DNA of 64,000 bases, from assembly GCF_900114835.1 (NCBI RefSeq), contig NZ_FOUJ01000003.1, positions 62,001-126,000 of the forward strand, in the 5' to 3' direction. Of the stretch, positions 47,783-56,926 are shown piece by piece (the stretch's first letter is position 1; every line of letters starts with the position of its first letter). The notes beneath the pieces are model-generated. The model was given only the letters and a program-made list of their open reading frames with translations. It was not told where the DNA came from and searched no databases. The DNA is from Methanolobus profundi (lineage in GTDB: Archaea > Halobacteriota > Methanosarcinia > Methanosarcinales > Methanosarcinaceae). The translations under genes were made by a program, and so were the position numbers.

Positions 47783-48883
47783 TTACCTCCAAATAAATGT
47801 ATTTAATAAATCTTTTGATGAGAAAACTTTTTTGCCAGTATAGGAAGAAATTGTTGAATTAATTATTTTTTTCTTGTTATTACTTCCTAATAACTGATTT
47901 ATAACAGAAGGAACGTCTTTATAAAAATTTATAAACTTCACATTCATATCATACGAAGTATTTGCTTCAAAATCATAGCCAAGTGATACATTATATAGAT
48001 AAAATGGAAAGTCAACTCCACATGCAATTGGATGTTTTAAATACTGCCAAAAACGAGGATTTATTTCAATCAGCTTAAAGCAATTATCCCGCAAATCCAA
48101 TTTAAATTCAATTTCTGCTACTCCATACCACTTAAGGCTGGAAAATATTTTTTTTGCATAATCCAATAAAATCTGTTCAAATATACTCACACCACATGTA
48201 GTGACTCCACCTGTGTGAGGATATTCACGTATTTTTTTTGCCATGAAAAAAGATACGAGCTCATGATTTTTATCATAAAGAACATTTATCATATACATTT
48301 GCTCACTCGACCCTGGAATATATTCTTGTATCATGGGCAGGTGACCATCAGCAATAAGTTCATAATAAAAGTTTACAAGCTCATCTTTTGATGTAACAAT
48401 ATGAATGCTCCTTGCAGCCCCCCCACCCATCCGAGGTTTTATTATCAGAGGATACGTTGCAATAGCTGAAAATTCAATTAACTCATCATAATCACTAAAA
48501 ATAAATGTTTCTGGAACTGGAACGTTCAATGACCTAGCCAAATCAAATGTTTGAAATTTATCGTGTGCCTTAATTAAATAATCATAATCAGAAAGAGGAA
48601 CATCACATACTTCATTTAAAATAGGCTTATTTTTGCTTAATGGAATAACAACATCGTCACTCATTGGAAATACTGTTTCTACATTGTTTTCCAAACATAT
48701 TTCATACACTGAATCAATAAAATTCTCAGTTGTTGGAGACAAATACTTTACATATTTTTGATTGGTCAAATTAAAAATGGGTTGTGATACATCTGCTGCT
48801 ACAGTAGAAACACTTTTTTTGTGAAGAGATTTTGCCGCCTCTTTTGATATTTTCCACGAAGAATTTGTTAATAGAACAGACAT
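47783..48883 (-). CDS. ATP-grasp domain protein
   Basis: 366 residues. A pre-ATP-grasp Rossmann part occupies about 1-110. The ATP-grasp domain has IIKPRMGGGAARS near residue 146 (Lys and glycine-rich loop), MIQEYIPG near 183 and EINPRFW near residue 274, which carry the nucleotide and magnesium ligands. Members join a carboxylate to an amine or other nucleophile with ATP. In glycan clusters they may ligate an amino acid to a sugar or make a glycan precursor. It sits between an acetyltransferase and the DUF354 gene. Confidence 0.87.
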   Translation of the reverse strand: MSVLLTNSSWKISKEAAKSLHKKSVSTVAADVSQPIFNLTNQKYVKYLSPTTENFIDSVYEICLENNVETVFPMSDDVVIPLSKNKPILNEVCDVPLSDYDYLIKAHDKFQTFDLARSLNVPVPETFIFSDYDELIEFSAIATYPLIIKPRMGGGAARSIHIVTSKDELVNFYYELIADGHLPMIQEYIPGSSEQMYMINVLYDKNHELVSFFMAKKIREYPHTGGVTTCGVSIFEQILLDYAKKIFSSLKWYGVAEIEFKLDLRDNCFKLIEINPRFWQYLKHPIACGVDFPFYLYNVSLGYDFEANTSYDMNVKFINFYKDVPSVINQLLGSNNKKKIINSTISSYTGKKVFSSKDLLNTFIWR

Positions 48884-48901
48884 GTGAAACGACTCCTATT
48901 T

Positions 48902-49366
48902 TTACTTAAGTGTCCTTATTTTTTTTGCAGGAACACCCGCAACTATAGTATAAGAATCTACATTTTTGGTAACAACTGCTCCTGCACCTACAATGGACCC
49001 TTCACCAATCGTAACATTAGGCAATATTGTAACAGAAGCTCCAATCCATGAACCTTTCTTAATACATATAGAACCACTTATTGTTGAACTTATTTTACCA
49101 TATTTAGCAATATCACTTGCAGGATGAGTACGAAGAACTAAAATTGAATACGGACCTATATGAACATCATCCTCAATTGTAAGTAGATTTGTATCTGAAT
49201 GATGAGTACCCCATAATAAACAATAAGGACTTATTATAGAGTTATCACCTATATTATAGCCACATTTCCTCCACCAATATGTAGGCCACTTGTATGATAC
49301 AGGATAACGTGCTAACAGACTGTATATCTTTAACTTTAATTTACAAATATATAATAGTATGCCCAT
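48902..49366 (-). CDS. Hexapeptide-repeat sugar acetyltransferase
   Basis: 154 residues of beta-helix repeats (IGDNSIISPYCLLWGTHH, GSICIKKGSWIGASVTILPNVTIGEGSIVGAGAVV), with a probable N-terminal amphipathic or membrane-associated helix. The WGTHHSD part supplies a catalytic-type His. It transfers an acetyl group to a sugar in a surface glycan. Its short length fits the WbbJ/LacA-like group, not CysE. It is 21 bases after the FemAB-like gene and 18 before the ATP-grasp gene. Confidence 0.85.
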   Translation of the reverse strand: MGILLYICKLKLKIYSLLARYPVSYKWPTYWWRKCGYNIGDNSIISPYCLLWGTHHSDTNLLTIEDDVHIGPYSILVLRTHPASDIAKYGKISSTISGSICIKKGSWIGASVTILPNVTIGEGSIVGAGAVVTKNVDSYTIVAGVPAKKIRTLK

Positions 49367-49387
49367 ACTCCTCCATTACTTAACATA

Positions 49388-50413
49388 TCAACATAAAAAC
49401 CTATGCAAGAGCGGCCTTATTATTTGATAGGTTTTAAATAATTTGAATGCTACTGTTTTTTTCGTCACTGAATGCACTTTCTCATATCTACCATAGTTCA
49501 CCATTTCCCCACCAAACCTTCTCTTGAATTCCCTTACACCATATGGTTTATCTGGGTGCCCGGCACCACCGAAATCAAATATCTTATACTTGCCAGCATT
49601 CATCTTCAGAATATGCCATACAAGAGCCTCATCAACGTAATCCACACCTTGGCGTGAGCCTGCATACCAGTCATAGACCATGTCTTTATAGTTAAGAGTG
49701 ATTCTGGTCCCCACAACTTCCTCATTCTTATAGGCGATTAAGAAATCTGCATAACCTGTTTCTGAAAGAGCATCATATACTGCTTCAAAAAGAGAGATAT
49801 CTGCAATAGGGATCTTAAATCGTTTATATGTATCAAGAACCAGATCATAGCACAGCTTTAATTCTTCACGTTCCTCTACATTCCTGACTATGATCCCGTC
49901 CCTTTCCGCCCGGTTTATGCCTTTTCGACGGGATTTCTGGATATCCGACCATATTTCTTCTTCTTTGCGGTCCAGATTTATCAAAAAATCAAGATGCTCC
50001 TCGTATTCATAACCCATAGCATCCAACATTTTACAGCAATTACTGGTATCCCCCATATTTCTTATTTGGGTATAAACTACCTTATCCTTCATTAAATCAT
50101 TATAGTGGACCATAAGTTCTTGAACTGCTTTCTTCCCTTGATCAGAATCCACAAATAACGGAGCACCCTGTATCACTGAACGTGATGAAAAAGAAGAAAG
50201 TATTCCTTTCATTTCACTGATAACAGAACCTTGCACCAAGGCCAGTATTTTACCAGACCCTTCGTCTTTTGCTATAAGGCGTACTGTTTCATACTTGGTA
50301 GCTTTGCTATAAACTTTTGCCATATGAGAAGTCTGGAAAATATTTCCATATGGGTGGTCAAGAACAAACTTATCCCATTCTGTATCATCAAAAATATCAG
50401 TAATCATTAGCAT
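49388..50413 (-). CDS. FemAB-like GNAT-fold aminoacyl-transfer protein
   Basis: 341 residues from the ATG at 50413. An upstream in-frame ATG overlaps the previous gene; GGGG lies 9 bases before 50413 and supports it. The sequence shows the double GNAT fold of FemABX proteins: a first half with NIFQTSHMAKVY near residue 20, IWSDIQKSRRKGINRAERDG (around 132-151) typical of FemAB-like members, and a second half with YDWYAGSRQGVDYVDEALVW. FemABX enzymes use aminoacyl-tRNA to add amino acids to cell wall peptides. Methanogens lack bacterial peptidoglycan, so here it might decorate a glycan or pseudo-peptide. A polysaccharide deacetylase gene precedes it. Confidence 0.82.
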   Translation of the reverse strand: MLMITDIFDDTEWDKFVLDHPYGNIFQTSHMAKVYSKATKYETVRLIAKDEGSGKILALVQGSVISEMKGILSSFSSRSVIQGAPLFVDSDQGKKAVQELMVHYNDLMKDKVVYTQIRNMGDTSNCCKMLDAMGYEYEEHLDFLINLDRKEEEIWSDIQKSRRKGINRAERDGIIVRNVEEREELKLCYDLVLDTYKRFKIPIADISLFEAVYDALSETGYADFLIAYKNEEVVGTRITLNYKDMVYDWYAGSRQGVDYVDEALVWHILKMNAGKYKIFDFGGAGHPDKPYGVREFKRRFGGEMVNYGRYEKVHSVTKKTVAFKLFKTYQIIRPLLHRFLC

Positions 50414-50429
50414 CAAAGTACCCCTATAA

Positions 50430-51218
50430 CTATTTGGTAAGCTTCCTGTACTGTATAATTCCCGCCTTACCAACATTCTTAAGGTTCTGCATGACCAGTT
50501 CTTTGGTCCAACCAAGCATTCCATCACACCACCTGTTAGGATGGGCAAGGATACATAGCTGTTTCACTTCCTCACTTCTGACCAGGCCAATGACATCATC
50601 CGTTGATCTTATTTTACTTCCATATTTAAGGCTCAGTTCATTATCAGGGACTTCAAGTACATCCTTAACACGTATATTTCGGTCGGCCCATGTCCTTCCT
50701 GTGTCAGTGAGATACAGAACTTTTGAGTAATCTATCGAAAAGTAAGGTTCACCAACGATCCCAAAGTCAGTATAATCATGATCCTTCCAGAGATCCCTGT
50801 TGGACCAGGTCGCAAAAGGATTTCCATGCATGCAGGCTGTCGTTACCTCAGCATACCTGCGCAGATCCTCCAGTTCGGTCCTGAAGATATCCAGAGCCTT
50901 TGCCTTATCTCCTTTTGCCTTATCCAGCACTTCATAGTGAAAACCCACCTCATGGCCAAGGTCAGCGATCTCTTCGATTGCAGAGGGAACAAATACATCC
51001 TCCACATGCCTGAAATAGTAGGTCGATCTAATTCCATGCTCTGCTTCCTGTCTTGCCATTGCAAGGTTCCTGTCGACCGCACGATCCACATCATGTCGAA
51101 GGATTATGCACCTGCCATCTGGAGAAGACAGGTAATCGCATACGGCCATCGCCTTATATTCGCTTGAAACTATAGCTTCAATAAGCTCTTCATATTTAGA
51201 TAATGTGAAATCTCTCAA
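50430..51218 (-). CDS. Polysaccharide deacetylase-like protein
   Basis: 262 residues of the NodB-homology/carbohydrate esterase 4 type fold. The motif RHDVDRAVDRN near residue 40 supplies the metal-binding Asp, GHEVGFHYE near residue 91 supplies the His set, and LAHPNRW near residue 233 is the C-terminal His. It may remove acetyl groups from a sugar in a surface glycan. It is the first gene of the minus-strand run in island II and is divergent from the archaeosortase gene. Its GC content is higher than that of the next genes. Confidence 0.82.
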   Translation of the reverse strand: MRDFTLSKYEELIEAIVSSEYKAMAVCDYLSSPDGRCIILRHDVDRAVDRNLAMARQEAEHGIRSTYYFRHVEDVFVPSAIEEIADLGHEVGFHYEVLDKAKGDKAKALDIFRTELEDLRRYAEVTTACMHGNPFATWSNRDLWKDHDYTDFGIVGEPYFSIDYSKVLYLTDTGRTWADRNIRVKDVLEVPDNELSLKYGSKIRSTDDVIGLVRSEEVKQLCILAHPNRWCDGMLGWTKELVMQNLKNVGKAGIIQYRKLTK

Positions 51219-51458: not shown

Positions 51459-52283
51459 ATGCAAGATGAAAACAAAAACATAATAATTATTCTTCTGGTA
51501 CTTGCACTTTTCACAGGGGCAACTATAGAACTCAGTGAAGGCTCGACCATAATGGGTGTGGTACTCTTCATAATTGCTGCGATACTTATATCCCGGATGG
51601 AACTATCAGGAACCGAAGGATTGAAAAGCTCCAGGAATCTGATGCTTATCGGAGGATTCATTGTAGCTGCAGACCTCATTTATAATTATGTGAATTCCAG
51701 TGAACTGGGGACACTTGATTCAATGGTCTTTTTCCTGGGTGCCTCATTGCTCGCCATGGGAACCGGCAAGAAGGACATAAAGCAACTGGGAGAGTTCGGA
51801 TTTTACATTTCTTTTGTCTTCACCACATTATATTTGATATTCTACACGTTCTTTGGAGTGTTCAATATAGATTTCCTGCATCTTTTCGACCATTATTTCG
51901 TCCTTATGCCGACAGTTATGATAATAAGGCTTTTTGGCATACCTGTTGAGATAATAGCAACAGAAACAGTGATTCTCTATGGTGCAGAACCCATGACCAT
52001 CCTAATAGGTGGTCCATGTTCAGGATTATACTCGATGTTCCTTTTGATAGGGATCGTAGCCGGATATTCCAGAATAGAAAGAATGGACGTAAGAAGATCC
52101 ATCAACCTGCTGGGTTTTGCTGTGGCCATTGCATACATTGCAAACCTCATAAGGGTCCTAATATTATACATCACAGCCTACCTTTATGGCATGGATACGA
52201 TGATGATGGTTCACACACACATAGGATGGATGATCTTCGCAGTGACAGCAGGCGGCATAATGTATCTGGTAAATAGAAAATGA
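51459..52283 (+). CDS. Archaeosortase (exosortase-family transpeptidase)
   Basis: 274 residues with about eight membrane helices. The proposed catalytic set of the family is present: Cys187 in GGPCSGLYS, Arg232 in NLIRV and His252/His254 in HTHIGW. The protein would cut C-terminal sorting signals on the outer membrane face and join the substrate to a membrane lipid. A PEF-CTERM protein is encoded at 56411-56926, which points to the ArtC group, whose known partner signal is PEF-CTERM. A terminator hairpin sits between it and the small convergent gene. It is an ortholog by role only; the exact subfamily is not proven. Confidence 0.85.
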   Translation: MQDENKNIIIILLVLALFTGATIELSEGSTIMGVVLFIIAAILISRMELSGTEGLKSSRNLMLIGGFIVAADLIYNYVNSSELGTLDSMVFFLGASLLAMGTGKKDIKQLGEFGFYISFVFTTLYLIFYTFFGVFNIDFLHLFDHYFVLMPTVMIIRLFGIPVEIIATETVILYGAEPMTILIGGPCSGLYSMFLLIGIVAGYSRIERMDVRRSINLLGFAVAIAYIANLIRVLILYITAYLYGMDTMMMVHTHIGWMIFAVTAGGIMYLVNRK

Positions 52284-52301
52284 AGAAGGACTCCTTCATT
52301 T
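52278..52301. terminator. Shared hairpin between archaeosortase and small membrane gene
   Basis: AAATGAAG (52278-52285) pairs with CTTCATTT (52294-52301). It overlaps the archaeosortase stop and lies just past the convergent stop at 52296, so it can serve both strands. Confidence 0.55.
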
Positions 52302-52532
52302 TTCTATCAATCTCTTTTTCAGTATCCTTACTGATATGATCATCAATAGTATTACAGCGCCCATATAGACAAAAGTTAACCCGAATACAAGGACGAACTT
52401 GAAATCTTTAAGAATAAAAGTAATAGCAACAATCAGTCCAAAAAGGATGATGGAATACGAGATAAAGCTGAACATCAATGCCTTTTGCCAGTCCTTCAGA
52501 CTTGTATAGAAATAATTTAGCTCAGAAAACAT
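52296..52532 (-). CDS. Small two-helix membrane protein
   Basis: 78 residues with two hydrophobic segments, at about 20-40 and 48-68, an N-terminal amphipathic stretch (FYTSLKDWQKAL) and a basic tail (KKRLIEK). No family is recognised. It follows the M48-like gene by nine bases and so probably forms an operon with it. It may be a small partner of the archaeosortase system, but this rests only on position. Confidence 0.6.
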   Translation of the reverse strand: MFSELNYFYTSLKDWQKALMFSFISYSIILFGLIVAITFILKDFKFVLVFGLTFVYMGAVILLMIISVRILKKRLIEK

Positions 52533-52541
52533 TTTTACCCC

Positions 52542-53384
52542 TCAAAATTCCGATCCATTAACCATTACCTGAGAAATTGCATTCAAACGCTGGGCCATAT
52601 CAGGTCTCATCTCAAAAAGTGAAAGATGGAGATCGAAGAAGGAGTTGACCTTTACAGGGTTCATAGTAAAAAGGTGAACATGCCCTGGATTGAAATATTC
52701 CATAGAATTTAAAAGAATATCAGTGTGCATCCTTTTTAAAGCAGATACAAGAACATCCTTTTTGCCTAATACCCTGGCAACCTCCGTATCAGCCTTTAAA
52801 GTAAGGTCAGAGGCACCAGTATATACTATGATAGAACAGGGAAACATCACTATACCCATTACTACAAAGCGTATGAATTTTGGAGCAGGGTCTTCCTCGT
52901 TACCAAACCCACTTAACATGGCCATCCACAGAGCAGTAGTCGAAAATGAAGCAATTATACCGGCCACCAATGCGACAAAGGTATTTTGAGAAATGCTTCC
53001 TTCTTTAATACGCACCATCTCACGTGCAATGATACATTTTAATTCATTCTTATCAAGTATAGATAGCGATCTGCTCGAAAGCACCATACATGGACCCTTA
53101 TGAGAACCAACAGTGAATATAACCGGGACCGAGGATTCAAAGATATAGATTTTGGGCCTCTTTACAGAGAAGTTAGAAGAAAGATCATCAATTATAGGAT
53201 CAATAGTCGATAGTTCGCCTTGACCTGGTTCCCGGCACCTGTACCACTTCAGAAGCACACGGAAAGCTGACAGATATACATACCTACCCAGTATGATTAT
53301 AATAACCAGACTCAAGGCCCCTGCCACAATACCTCCAAAATAAACTGATGATCCAATGACAGGCACAGATATAATGAAAAACAA
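52542..53384 (-). CDS. M48 peptidase-like membrane protein with degenerate active site
   Basis: 280 residues with about four membrane helices. The sequence keeps the M48 layout (PKIYIFESSVPVIFTVGS, then LDKNELKCIIA, and a C-terminal RPDMAQRLNAI like the family's HPPIEERIAAL), but the zinc motif HExxH reads REMVR (residues 121-125), so both His are Arg. The later ExxAD site reads TLKAD, so the third ligand also looks lost. It therefore is likely a pseudoprotease. The frame opens with a TTG at 53384 and the start is uncertain. It lies in the archaeosortase locus. Confidence 0.75.
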   Translation of the reverse strand: MFFIISVPVIGSSVYFGGIVAGALSLVIIIILGRYVYLSAFRVLLKWYRCREPGQGELSTIDPIIDDLSSNFSVKRPKIYIFESSVPVIFTVGSHKGPCMVLSSRSLSILDKNELKCIIAREMVRIKEGSISQNTFVALVAGIIASFSTTALWMAMLSGFGNEEDPAPKFIRFVVMGIVMFPCSIIVYTGASDLTLKADTEVARVLGKKDVLVSALKRMHTDILLNSMEYFNPGHVHLFTMNPVKVNSFFDLHLSLFEMRPDMAQRLNAISQVMVNGSEF

Positions 53385-53561
53385 AATATATATCCAGATC
53401 TTATTCCTAATTATTATCCCTCGATTATTATTGATAAAGTGTCATACATGACAGGATGATATACAATGGCACCCTACACTTATATATTTTAGCAAATAAT
53501 TACATTCAACCCTTAAATATTTCATGTATATTCAATCACAACGCAAGGACAACGTGAACAG

Positions 53562-56285
53562 ATGTTAAGCCCAAATAAATGCAAATATACTACCGACCTG
53601 AAGGTTTTGATCATAGTTTCACTGCTTTCGGCAATATTTATCCTGATCGCACCTTTCAACGAAACACCATTGAGAATACTTTTTGCATTATTGCTTATAT
53701 TTTTCACCCCAGGCTATGCATTTATTGCTACTATCTTCCCTGGTAGCAGGGAGATATCAGTTATCGAGAGGTTCACACTTAGCGTTGGTTTCAGTATTAT
53801 TATAATGGTATTCGATGGGTTCCTCATCAGCCTTACAGAATGGAAGTTCAGACCTAACTCAATAACAATATCACTCATATTATTAACACTCGTATTCATA
53901 CTGCTGGCATACCTTTCAAGAAAGAGACTTCCAGAGGATGATCAATTCAGTTTCTCATTCCAACAGTTCATCAGCGACCAGGAAAGTGATTCTGAATGCA
54001 CAGGACCTGACAATGAAGAAAATGAATGCCAGGAGGAACTTACAGGTAAAAGACAGTTTGCTGCAAGAAATAGAAAAAAAGTATCTGCAGTGAACAAGTC
54101 TATGAAAGAGATAACAGCCTCAGGTCCTCAACGGTCAGATATATTATCCCCACAGATCACAAAGACCCTTATGATAGCAATGGTCCTTTCTATCATCGTG
54201 GCAGGCTCCATGTTCGCCTATGCCAAAGCAACAAGGGAAAAGGAAACATTCTCCACCCTCTACATACTCGGACCTGATGGAAAGGCGGAGGACTATCCCA
54301 CAAACTTCTCAACCAGTGATCCGATCCACGTGATTGCGGGAGTGGAGAACTATGAACATGAAAGCGCCAATTATACACTTAATATCGATCTGGATGGAAC
54401 TACAATAGATACAATACAGTTCACCCTGGACCATGGAAATAAATGGGAGGAAGAGCTTACAATATCCCCAACCAGATCAAAACAGGGAAGACAGAAATTC
54501 GAGCTTGTTCTATATAGAGGTGAGCCCACAGGAACCACATACAGATCAGTACACCTATGGCTTGACCAGGTGGTCAGCACAGAAACAATTGAAACTGAAA
54601 AATATGATGTTATTGATTTTGCTACGATCGATAATCCATCAATGGAGATAGACACCGGATGGGAGTTCAGCTCAACGAATGAATCGATCGCTACAGGCTA
54701 TTACATGAATGGTTCCGGCATATACGCATCACAGGCATATGTCATCAACTCCAGTTATGAAGGAATAACAGAGCGTCAACTGACAACACATACAATCCAA
54801 CAGGTAATCGAAAGTGACAGAGAAGCAGACGTATTATTATCCTGTTACATAAAGGATACATATACTGGAGGGACTTCGAATAAAGATGAATATCAGTTCA
54901 AAAGGGTGCTATTTAACGGTCAACTCGTATGGTATGATGGAGTCAATGGAGACGAAGGCTGGCAACATATACAGGTGCCTGTATCAATAAAAGAAGGAGA
55001 CAATACACTTTCATTCATGCTGCTTCAGAGTGCATTGCAAAGCATATCCCCTGTAGAGGTCATGATCGATGAGGTCAGTTTCCTGCCAGAGTCTGCATTG
55101 TCCCCTTATATAGAAGAAGATAACACTGTGGAATTCAATCTTCCTGAATCAAATGTATATCCATTACCAATATCAAGTGATGAGATATTCACAGTTGAAT
55201 GGAATGGAACTGACAAGGGCTCAGGAATATTCTATTACAATATCCAGTACTCAACAGATGGAACTACATGGAACGACTGGTTCAAAAGAACAAGTATAAC
55301 TTCTGCAGAATTCAAAGGAACACCAGGAGTAACATACTACTTCAGATCCATAGCAACAGATAACGCACTCAATAGAGAAATAATTGATACTGTGGCAGAC
55401 ACAAAGACATCGGTTGATATATCGTTACCAACAGTTGAACTTGATATTACTCCGAACCCCACAAGCGATGTAACCTACCTCACAGTAGAAGCAAACAAGG
55501 CACTCCTCAAAGTCGAGTGTACAATAACCCCGAGGAACTTTGGAGGAGCGGAGACAATAGAACTCACTACAAGTGATAATATTACGTGGACCAGTAAATA
55601 TACCATAGAAGTTCAGGACACTTATGATATAGAAGTGATCGCTACTGATCACGCCAATAATGAGGCATATACATTCGGTACACTCTACACTGATGAAACA
55701 TTGGAAGAACTTTTAATTGAGATAGAACCTGAAAAAGTATCAGATGAAGCTACAATTACTATAACTTCATCTACAGCTCTAAAAGATGAGCCTACAGTAA
55801 TAGTAAAAGACAGATATGGATACAAACTGGAAGTTAAATACGATAGCTCAGATGAGAATGAATACGTGTACACAGTAACAACTGATGACGATGATCTGGA
55901 TTATACAATACGTGATGGAACAGCGCGTGTGACAGTAACTGCAAAAACAGCAGATTCAATGACCCTGTATGAAGAAGAAACATTCCTGATAGATAGAGTG
56001 GATCCAACCATTGAGAGCCTTACCCCTGACAAAGGTGAAACTATAGGTTCAGATACAGTATCGATAAGAGCTTCATACTCAGATAACCGTGCTGGTATTG
56101 ATAAAACAAAAGTTACCCTTCAGATAAATGGGGTTGATGTAACGGATAATTCAGAGGTAGATTATGGATCCATATCATATACAGCAACTGGACTTGAAGA
56201 TGGAGAAGTGGAGGTCCGTCTTGTCATCACAGACCAGGCAGGAAATACGCAGGAGGAGAACTGGAGCTTCTATGTATCAACATAA
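53562..56285 (+). CDS. DUF1616-type membrane protein with long Ig/FN3-like ectodomain
   Basis: 907 residues. There are three to four membrane helices in residues 10-115, an acidic then basic cytoplasmic loop (about 120-195), another helix near 205-227, and then a long outside part. The outside begins with STLYILGPDGKAEDYPTNF, a block typical of DUF1616 proteins, and continues with a carbohydrate-binding-like domain, an FN3-like domain (about 535-610), and Ig-like domains to the end (DRVDPTIESL). It follows a divergent gap after the M48-like gene and precedes the PEF-CTERM gene by 125 bases. Role in this locus is unknown. It is a plausible surface receptor or scaffold. Confidence 0.78.
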   Translation: MLSPNKCKYTTDLKVLIIVSLLSAIFILIAPFNETPLRILFALLLIFFTPGYAFIATIFPGSREISVIERFTLSVGFSIIIMVFDGFLISLTEWKFRPNSITISLILLTLVFILLAYLSRKRLPEDDQFSFSFQQFISDQESDSECTGPDNEENECQEELTGKRQFAARNRKKVSAVNKSMKEITASGPQRSDILSPQITKTLMIAMVLSIIVAGSMFAYAKATREKETFSTLYILGPDGKAEDYPTNFSTSDPIHVIAGVENYEHESANYTLNIDLDGTTIDTIQFTLDHGNKWEEELTISPTRSKQGRQKFELVLYRGEPTGTTYRSVHLWLDQVVSTETIETEKYDVIDFATIDNPSMEIDTGWEFSSTNESIATGYYMNGSGIYASQAYVINSSYEGITERQLTTHTIQQVIESDREADVLLSCYIKDTYTGGTSNKDEYQFKRVLFNGQLVWYDGVNGDEGWQHIQVPVSIKEGDNTLSFMLLQSALQSISPVEVMIDEVSFLPESALSPYIEEDNTVEFNLPESNVYPLPISSDEIFTVEWNGTDKGSGIFYYNIQYSTDGTTWNDWFKRTSITSAEFKGTPGVTYYFRSIATDNALNREIIDTVADTKTSVDISLPTVELDITPNPTSDVTYLTVEANKALLKVECTITPRNFGGAETIELTTSDNITWTSKYTIEVQDTYDIEVIATDHANNEAYTFGTLYTDETLEELLIEIEPEKVSDEATITITSSTALKDEPTVIVKDRYGYKLEVKYDSSDENEYVYTVTTDDDDLDYTIRDGTARVTVTAKTADSMTLYEEETFLIDRVDPTIESLTPDKGETIGSDTVSIRASYSDNRAGIDKTKVTLQINGVDVTDNSEVDYGSISYTATGLEDGEVEVRLVITDQAGNTQEENWSFYVST

Positions 56286-56336
56286 ATTCAGAACATATCA
56301 TCATTATGATGAGTATGACATCAATAGGATGTTGCA

Positions 56337-56349
56337 AAAGTATATATAG
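56337..56349 (+). promoter_or_regulatory. TATA box of the PEF-CTERM gene
   Basis: AAAGTATATATAG lies 62 bases before the ATG at 56411, giving a leader of about 35 bases. AGAGGTGGTACGA just before the ATG is a strong ribosome binding site. Confidence 0.55.
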
Positions 56350-56410
56350 AAAAAACACAAAGGAAAGACATAACAGTAAAAATCTTTTGAAAAAAAGAGG
56401 TGGTACGAAT

Positions 56411-56926
56411 ATGAAGAAATTATTAACAATACTACTTATTGCTCTTGTAGCTCTAGTAGGAACAGCAAGCGCTAACTACGGTGCAGACCTTGCAGACAGT
56501 TCAGGAGTAGTCCTGCCAAATACCGTAACACAGATGGTAGGAACACCTGTAGATTACAGTATCATACTAACCGACTTTACAGGTGAGACAGTATACTACA
56601 AGGTAGGTTTTAATGATACAGGACTTACAATGGACATCCTTAAGCAGGGAACTTACGTTTCAAGCAACCCATTCACTGACTACGACATAGTTCGTGTAAC
56701 AGTAGAACAGGGAGCAGCACAGGGAGATTCATTCAGCGGTAGGATCGATGTATACAGAGAGGACCCTGATGCAAACGTACAGGCAGTAGCTATTGCATCA
56801 ATCCCATTCTGGGCATCTGCATCACAGAACTTTAATGCACAGATTCCAGAATTCCCAACCATTGCACTCCCAGTAGCTGCAATAATCGGTCTTGCATTCT
56901 TCATGCAGCGCCGTAAGGAAGAGTAA
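56411..56926 (+). CDS. PEF-CTERM surface protein
   Basis: 171 residues from the ATG at 56411; a longer frame upstream lacks a binding site and would disrupt the signal peptide. Residues 1-22 form a signal peptide (KKLLTILLIALVALVGTASA). The middle 120 residues are beta-rich with no known fold by eye. The C-terminal 26 residues have PEF at 146-148, a hydrophobic helix (about 150-165) and QRRKEE, the tripartite PEF-CTERM sorting signal. The archaeosortase 4 kb upstream is its likely processing enzyme. A terminator follows and overlaps the stop. It is probably exported, cut near PEF and lipid-anchored. Its role is unknown. Confidence 0.85.
   Translation: MKKLLTILLIALVALVGTASANYGADLADSSGVVLPNTVTQMVGTPVDYSIILTDFTGETVYYKVGFNDTGLTMDILKQGTYVSSNPFTDYDIVRVTVEQGAAQGDSFSGRIDVYREDPDANVQAVAIASIPFWASASQNFNAQIPEFPTIALPVAAIIGLAFFMQRRKEE

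Follow-up and report, generated by a model that had tools for sequence, protein, structure and literature searches.

An M48-like protein, often without its zinc site, and a small membrane protein are probable partners of archaeosortase C

Introduction

What do a relative of the M48 proteases and a small membrane protein do beside an archaeosortase? To our knowledge, archaeosortases and exosortases have mostly been treated as single enzymes that act with a tail signal, and how that tail is recognized is not known. In Haloferax, the archaeosortase ArtA is established to cleave surface proteins and to attach them to an anchor. In the literature that we searched, archaeosortase C (ArtC, TIGR03762) is given with its PEF-CTERM targets (TIGR03024) alone, and no M48-like or small partner is mentioned. 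In Methanolobus profundi, genes for two such proteins lie next to artC. Below, the window is the whole stretch of 64,000 nucleotides analysed, positions 62001-126000 of contig C11 in a genome of 3.1 Mb. A first-pass annotation of this DNA had suggested that the pairing of a pseudoprotease with a small membrane protein could define accessory parts of the sorting system.

Results

The ArtC locus and its five genes

The first-pass annotation placed five genes in about 5.5 kb, and all of them are confirmed at those places (Table 1). The arrangement is not a matter of chance, as some 70 loci phylum-wide have these genes again. ArtC and the PEF-CTERM protein each fall squarely within their family, with scores over the curated cut-offs. 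ArtC matches its model over the full length, is the sole PF09721 match in the source genome, and has its closest named relatives in Methanolobus species, with 88% identity in M. bombayensis. The putative catalytic residues Cys187, Arg232 and His254 are all present; among 62 ArtC proteins compared, the Cys and the Arg are each found in 62, and the third position is His in 53 and Tyr in 9.

Table 1. Features of the ArtC locus, in window coordinates
Feature	Position	Strand	Evidence
Archaeosortase C (ArtC), 274 aa	51459..52283	+	TIGR03762, 340.8 bits (cut-off 100)
Small two-helix membrane protein, 78 aa, KDF loop	52296..52532	-	No Pfam/NCBIfam family
M48/HtpX-like pseudoprotease, 289 codons from probable AUU start	52542..53411	-	Pfam M48 (PF01435), 25.7 bits (cut-off 20.3)
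REMVR replacing the HExxH zinc motif of the M48-like protein	53010..53024	-	Alignment with relatives and ordinary HtpX
GFGNEEDPAP loop of the M48-like protein, between two hydrophobic helices	52881..52910	-	Family conservation
Long DUF1616 membrane protein of 907 aa, containing Ig-like domains	53562..56285	+	PF07760, 205.4 bits (cut-off 31.6)
PEF-CTERM protein of 171 aa, with a signal peptide and body before PEFP, a hydrophobic stretch and an RRKEE tail	56411..56926	+	TIGR03024, 36.4 bits (cut-off 23)

The PEF-CTERM protein of the locus is one of 14 TIGR03024 matches in the source genome, and its C-terminus consists of the PEF motif, a hydrophobic stretch and a basic tail (IPEFPTIALPVAAIIGLAFFMQRRKEE). 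Its gene is taken to start at 56411, which has a strong ribosome site and replaces a start at 56306. The idea that this protein is orthologous across loci was rejected: only the signal and the tail are widely common, so that the position of a PEF-CTERM protein is conserved rather than the protein itself.

Adjoining artC on its other side (47783-51218, minus strand), the window encodes an ATP-grasp protein, a hexapeptide acyltransferase, a FemAB-like protein (57.9 bits with the PEP-CTERM FemAB model TIGR03019, under its cut-off of 260) and one protein without a family. This gene mix resembles the polysaccharide clusters found beside bacterial exosortases.

The M48-like protein and its zinc site

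The M48-like protein belongs to Pfam M48, and it falls far short of the HtpX equivalogs of NCBIfam, whose cut-offs range from 245 to 422 bits (best score 85.6 against 369 bits). The HExxH motif of active M48 peptidases is replaced by REMVR. Similarly, the third zinc ligand, a Glu four residues before a conserved Asp, is replaced by Thr, with TLKAD standing for ExxxD. A frameshift or sequencing error behind the missing motif is ruled out by the open frame and by other substitutions at the same columns in several genera. An AlphaFold model of the protein (pLDDT 92.6) matches ZMPSTE24, Ste24p, HtpX and BlaR1 in a structure search, and a profile search agrees. The likeness to HtpX and Ste24 is one of fold and of helix order around the motif region. 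The differences are the loss of the zinc site in the protein of this locus, a separate clade, a Pro-Ala-Pro loop and a fixed link with ArtC and the small protein.

How general is the loss? Of the 71 M48 partners, 26 have an intact zinc motif, among them those of all ten Methanosarcina-like loci that were compared and most members of one other family; in the remaining 45 the motif is broken. The term pseudoprotease, used in the first-pass annotation, is therefore true of the protein in the window and of those 45 partners but not of the 26. The replacements are diverse (REMVR/RELAR, CEAAK, LEVTK, REIGH, HNIVQ/YNIVQ, YEIAH, HEMSR, HELIR, HELVL, DMIVH and FQLLH); in ordinary HtpX from this order, the motif reads HELAH or HEMAH. 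In a likelihood tree, the partners form one clade separate from same-order HtpX, with support 100. The state of the motif changes at least eight times along the partner tree, which comes from a quick search, has several weakly supported branches and gives no direction of change; we read these changes as losses because the re-gaining of three ligands is unlikely. The ancestor of the M48 partners would have been a membrane zinc protease. Since the zinc site has been lost in many lineages, the present one among them, the function conserved in all M48 partners would not be catalysis. The genes are nevertheless kept under purifying selection: among nine Methanolobus, omega is 0.14 for the M48 gene, 0.09 for the small protein and 0.07 for ArtC, values that lie clearly below 1 but should not be taken as precise, with synonymous sites probably near saturation.

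The best-kept stretch, in broken and intact partners alike, is GFGxExDPAP, with Gly/Phe/Gly at 96-100%, Asp at 84-96% and Pro-Ala-Pro at 89-100%. Ordinary HtpX has GGFGGRDDD at this position, without Pro-Ala-Pro. Judged from HtpX and from hydropathy, the loop would lie outside the cytoplasm if the protein has the topology of HtpX.

With a fold closest to Ste24/HtpX and a zinc motif that is intact in 26 of 71 members, all ten Methanosarcina-like loci included, the M48 partner could be a dedicated quality-control or by-product protease that breaks down the C-terminal peptide set free by ArtC, or else PEF-CTERM proteins left unprocessed, and its zinc-less members could be regulatory remnants. We regard this as unlikely. 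The motif was lost several times independently, in 45 of 71 partners, with the gene still beside artC under purifying selection, and the residues common to all partners lie in the helix-loop region, not at the zinc site. We propose that the M48 partner probably has a conserved role other than proteolysis, as a scaffold or as a binder of tails for ArtC.

At L040-L049 and L054-L070, most PEF tails have the ending -KEGL or -KEEL if the M48 partner of the locus has an intact HExxH, and -RRKEE or a similar ending if the motif is broken, an association that is confounded by lineage.

The start codon of the M48 gene

The TTG start listed for the M48 gene (53384) was rejected, for the conserved N-terminus begins at an upstream ATT, 53411. 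No ATG, GTG or TTG is found where this N-terminus begins (53409-53411, minus strand). ATT also occupies this position in about ten relatives from the Methanolobus group, three sister-genus loci (L045-L047) have ATG and others have ATA, and a GAGGG ribosome site lies 6-7 bases before the ATT. The gene probably starts at this conserved AUU codon. An AUU start is unusual outside infC.

The small protein and its fusion to the M48 partner

The small protein has two hydrophobic helices with a conserved KDF loop between them, and searches of Pfam and NCBIfam returned no matching family. An alignment built from sequences at these loci (family A2), which could miss very distant homologues elsewhere, finds it in 56 of 150 genomes of the order, always in single copy. 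In 55 of these genomes its gene comes immediately after that of the M48 partner, on its 3' side and in the same orientation; in the 56th (G051), the M48 gene is a fragment cut at the contig end.

In Methanosarcina-like genera and in several lineages of another family, the two proteins are fused in one open frame with the M48 part first, just as the M48 gene comes first where the two are separate. Fusion is seen in 21 M48 frames of more than 330 aa, which contain the small domain as well. HtpX models are the best NCBIfam match of all 19 fused members, the member shown falling far under their cut-offs, and NCBIfam has no model that names the M48 partners.

A regulator or sensor comparable to the M56 protease BlaR1, which would tune the activity of ArtC or the level at which the locus is expressed and take no part in sorting itself, must also be considered. 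BlaR1 is among the structural matches of the M48-like protein, and the probable weak AUU start would suit a regulator of low abundance. Nonetheless, no sensor or DNA-binding partner is found among the genes of the locus, and fusion is with the small membrane protein alone. We hold regulation of this kind to be quite improbable.

Co-occurrence with ArtC

Is the link with ArtC more than local? The ArtC model, the M48 protein, the small-protein alignment, PEF-CTERM and DUF1616 were each searched across 150 whole genomes of the order, drawn evenly. Control genomes, Methanosarcina acetivorans among them, yielded no match to ArtC. ArtC was called strong above 200 bits, a threshold chosen after a second class had been noticed at 105-160 bits. 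On this threshold, the small protein accompanies strong ArtC in 49 of 51 genomes and is found in 7 of 99 others (p = 2.6e-29), with both in 49, ArtC only in 2, the small protein only in 7 and neither in 92. At the curated cut-off of 100 bits the corresponding counts are 49, 5, 7 and 89 (p = 5e-26), and stratification by genus leaves the association at p = 2e-19 over ten informative genera. Within single genera, ArtC and the M48-small pair occur or are missing jointly. Likewise, counts tallied by hand from two lists for 393 genomes of the phylum give the small protein in 38 of 39 with strong ArtC versus 6 of 354 others. Far from turning up mostly away from archaeosortases, the outcome named in advance as speaking against the link, the M48-like and small genes thus follow ArtC.

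The arrangement of the genes is equally regular. ArtC is present at 52 of the 71 M48-partner loci, on the opposite strand in every one of the 52 and within 1.5 kb of the M48 gene in 49. PEF-CTERM proteins are found at 36 of 71 loci, and at 33 of these the distance to the DUF1616 gene is no more than 1.2 kb. Taken together, genome content, position, orientation and fusion all show the pair tracking ArtC. They support the proposal that it is an accessory part of sorting, and we conclude with considerable confidence that the M48-small pair belongs to the ArtC system.

Co-occurrence, clade and orientation also rule out that an ordinary HtpX stands beside artC by chance. Could the M48-like protein be an ordinary HtpX paralogue kept there by shared descent, with no functional link? 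Its Pfam M48 membership and its weak matches to HtpX models are in keeping with such an origin. However, the genomes checked have a separate, ordinary HtpX with HExxH, the partners form their own clade, the genes are jointly present or absent within ten genera, and the opposite orientation is conserved across families. We consider a mere paralogue scarcely credible.

A further alternative is that the long DUF1616 protein is what the M48 partner and the small protein serve, for instance in its assembly, and that ArtC is a mere neighbour in a surface-protein locus. As a partner in the locus, DUF1616 holds up in part: the long version is linked, lying no more than 2 kb from the M48 gene in 59 of 71 loci, some of them in genomes that have ArtC elsewhere, but DUF1616 proteins in general are widespread, in several copies, in 126 of the 150 genomes of the order, most of which have DUF1616 regardless of the pair. 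Furthermore, two loci (L137 and L139) have the M48-small pair beside ArtC and no DUF1616 within the stretch examined. Service to DUF1616 is accordingly a very unlikely explanation, and we retain ArtC as the partner.

The second ArtC-like class, at 105-160 bits, occurs without the M48-small pair at L092, L093 and L094 and in further genomes of the phylum. At L092-L094 it lies near a weak DUF1616-like match of 127-130 aa.

Exceptions to the link

The pair is not strictly required, because two genomes, G105 and G076, keep strong ArtC without it. G105 (Methanolobus) has ArtC and six PEF-CTERM matches but neither the M48 nor the small protein, and G076 has strong ArtC without the small protein. The G105 locus (L069, 8820-9424) is a natural deletion in which ArtC, DUF1616 and PEF-CTERM remain and the M48 and small genes are gone from between them. 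Of the seven genomes with the small protein only, two complete ones (G053 and G109) have decayed small genes and no ArtC; the other five are drafts, and ArtC may be absent from the assembly. Finally, three Methanolobus genomes, G111, G113 and G138, have six, three and seven PEF-CTERM matches, respectively, with no ArtC over the cut-off and one archaeosortase-family protein left in each. Their PEF tails may be handled by another enzyme, or the proteins may be left unprocessed.

Discussion

What is the M48-small pair to ArtC? We propose that it is very probably a working part of the ArtC anchoring machinery that has so far not been described. That the M48-like and small proteins form a dedicated membrane accessory unit of ArtC/PEF-CTERM sorting is, in our judgement, moderately likely. 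Inactive relatives of membrane proteases are known from eukaryotes, where the iRhoms have a rhomboid fold. As in the iRhoms, a protease fold appears to be kept without activity, presumably for substrate binding; in contrast to them, the fold here is that of M48, the proteins are archaeal and the loss is repeated and independent. A second parallel is the ArtA-PssA-PssD system of haloarchaea and Methanosarcina, in which accessory partners were likewise first suggested by gene neighbourhood (PMC7157517). The artA-pssA-pssD neighbourhood led to proven partners of ArtA, needed for processing, in Haloferax (PMC7157517), and hence such neighbourhoods have predicted real archaeosortase partners. The partners differ in kind: PssA and PssD are lipid enzymes, and those proposed for ArtC are a relative of proteases and a small membrane protein.

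How might the parts act together? By analogy, ArtC would cleave PEF-CTERM proteins at the outer face of the membrane and attach them to an anchor. On the cytoplasmic side, the M48 partner would hold the membrane helix and short basic tail of the substrate and would present the PEF motif to ArtC, and the small protein would join the M48 partner to ArtC. Given the topology of HtpX, the Pro-Ala-Pro loop would lie outside, as the active site of ArtC does, and the former protease domain would be cytoplasmic, where the basic tail of PEF-CTERM proteins would end. Partners with an intact zinc site may, in addition, destroy the released tail. We consider a receptor or scaffold mechanism of the M48 partner plausible, if a little short of likely. 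Somewhat more tentatively, there may be a membrane complex of several parts, with ArtC as its catalytic subunit, the protease-derived and often dead M48 protein as the receptor of the C-terminal tail and the small protein as the link; the repeated, independent death of the M48 protein would then reflect that binding, not cutting, is essential.

We found no link of HtpX or M48 proteins to archaeosortases or exosortases in the literature searched, which excludes Haft et al. 2012; one paper that covers both an archaeosortase and M48 names HtpX separately, as a stress protease. The present findings would correct annotation, for the M48 partner genes would otherwise be called HtpX heat-shock protease. 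They also offer a clear case of repeated change from enzyme to pseudoenzyme with a fixed partner. Finally, a pair that is inherited with one archaeosortase throughout a phylum, and kept after loss of the active site, would provide a handle on tail recognition in vivo.
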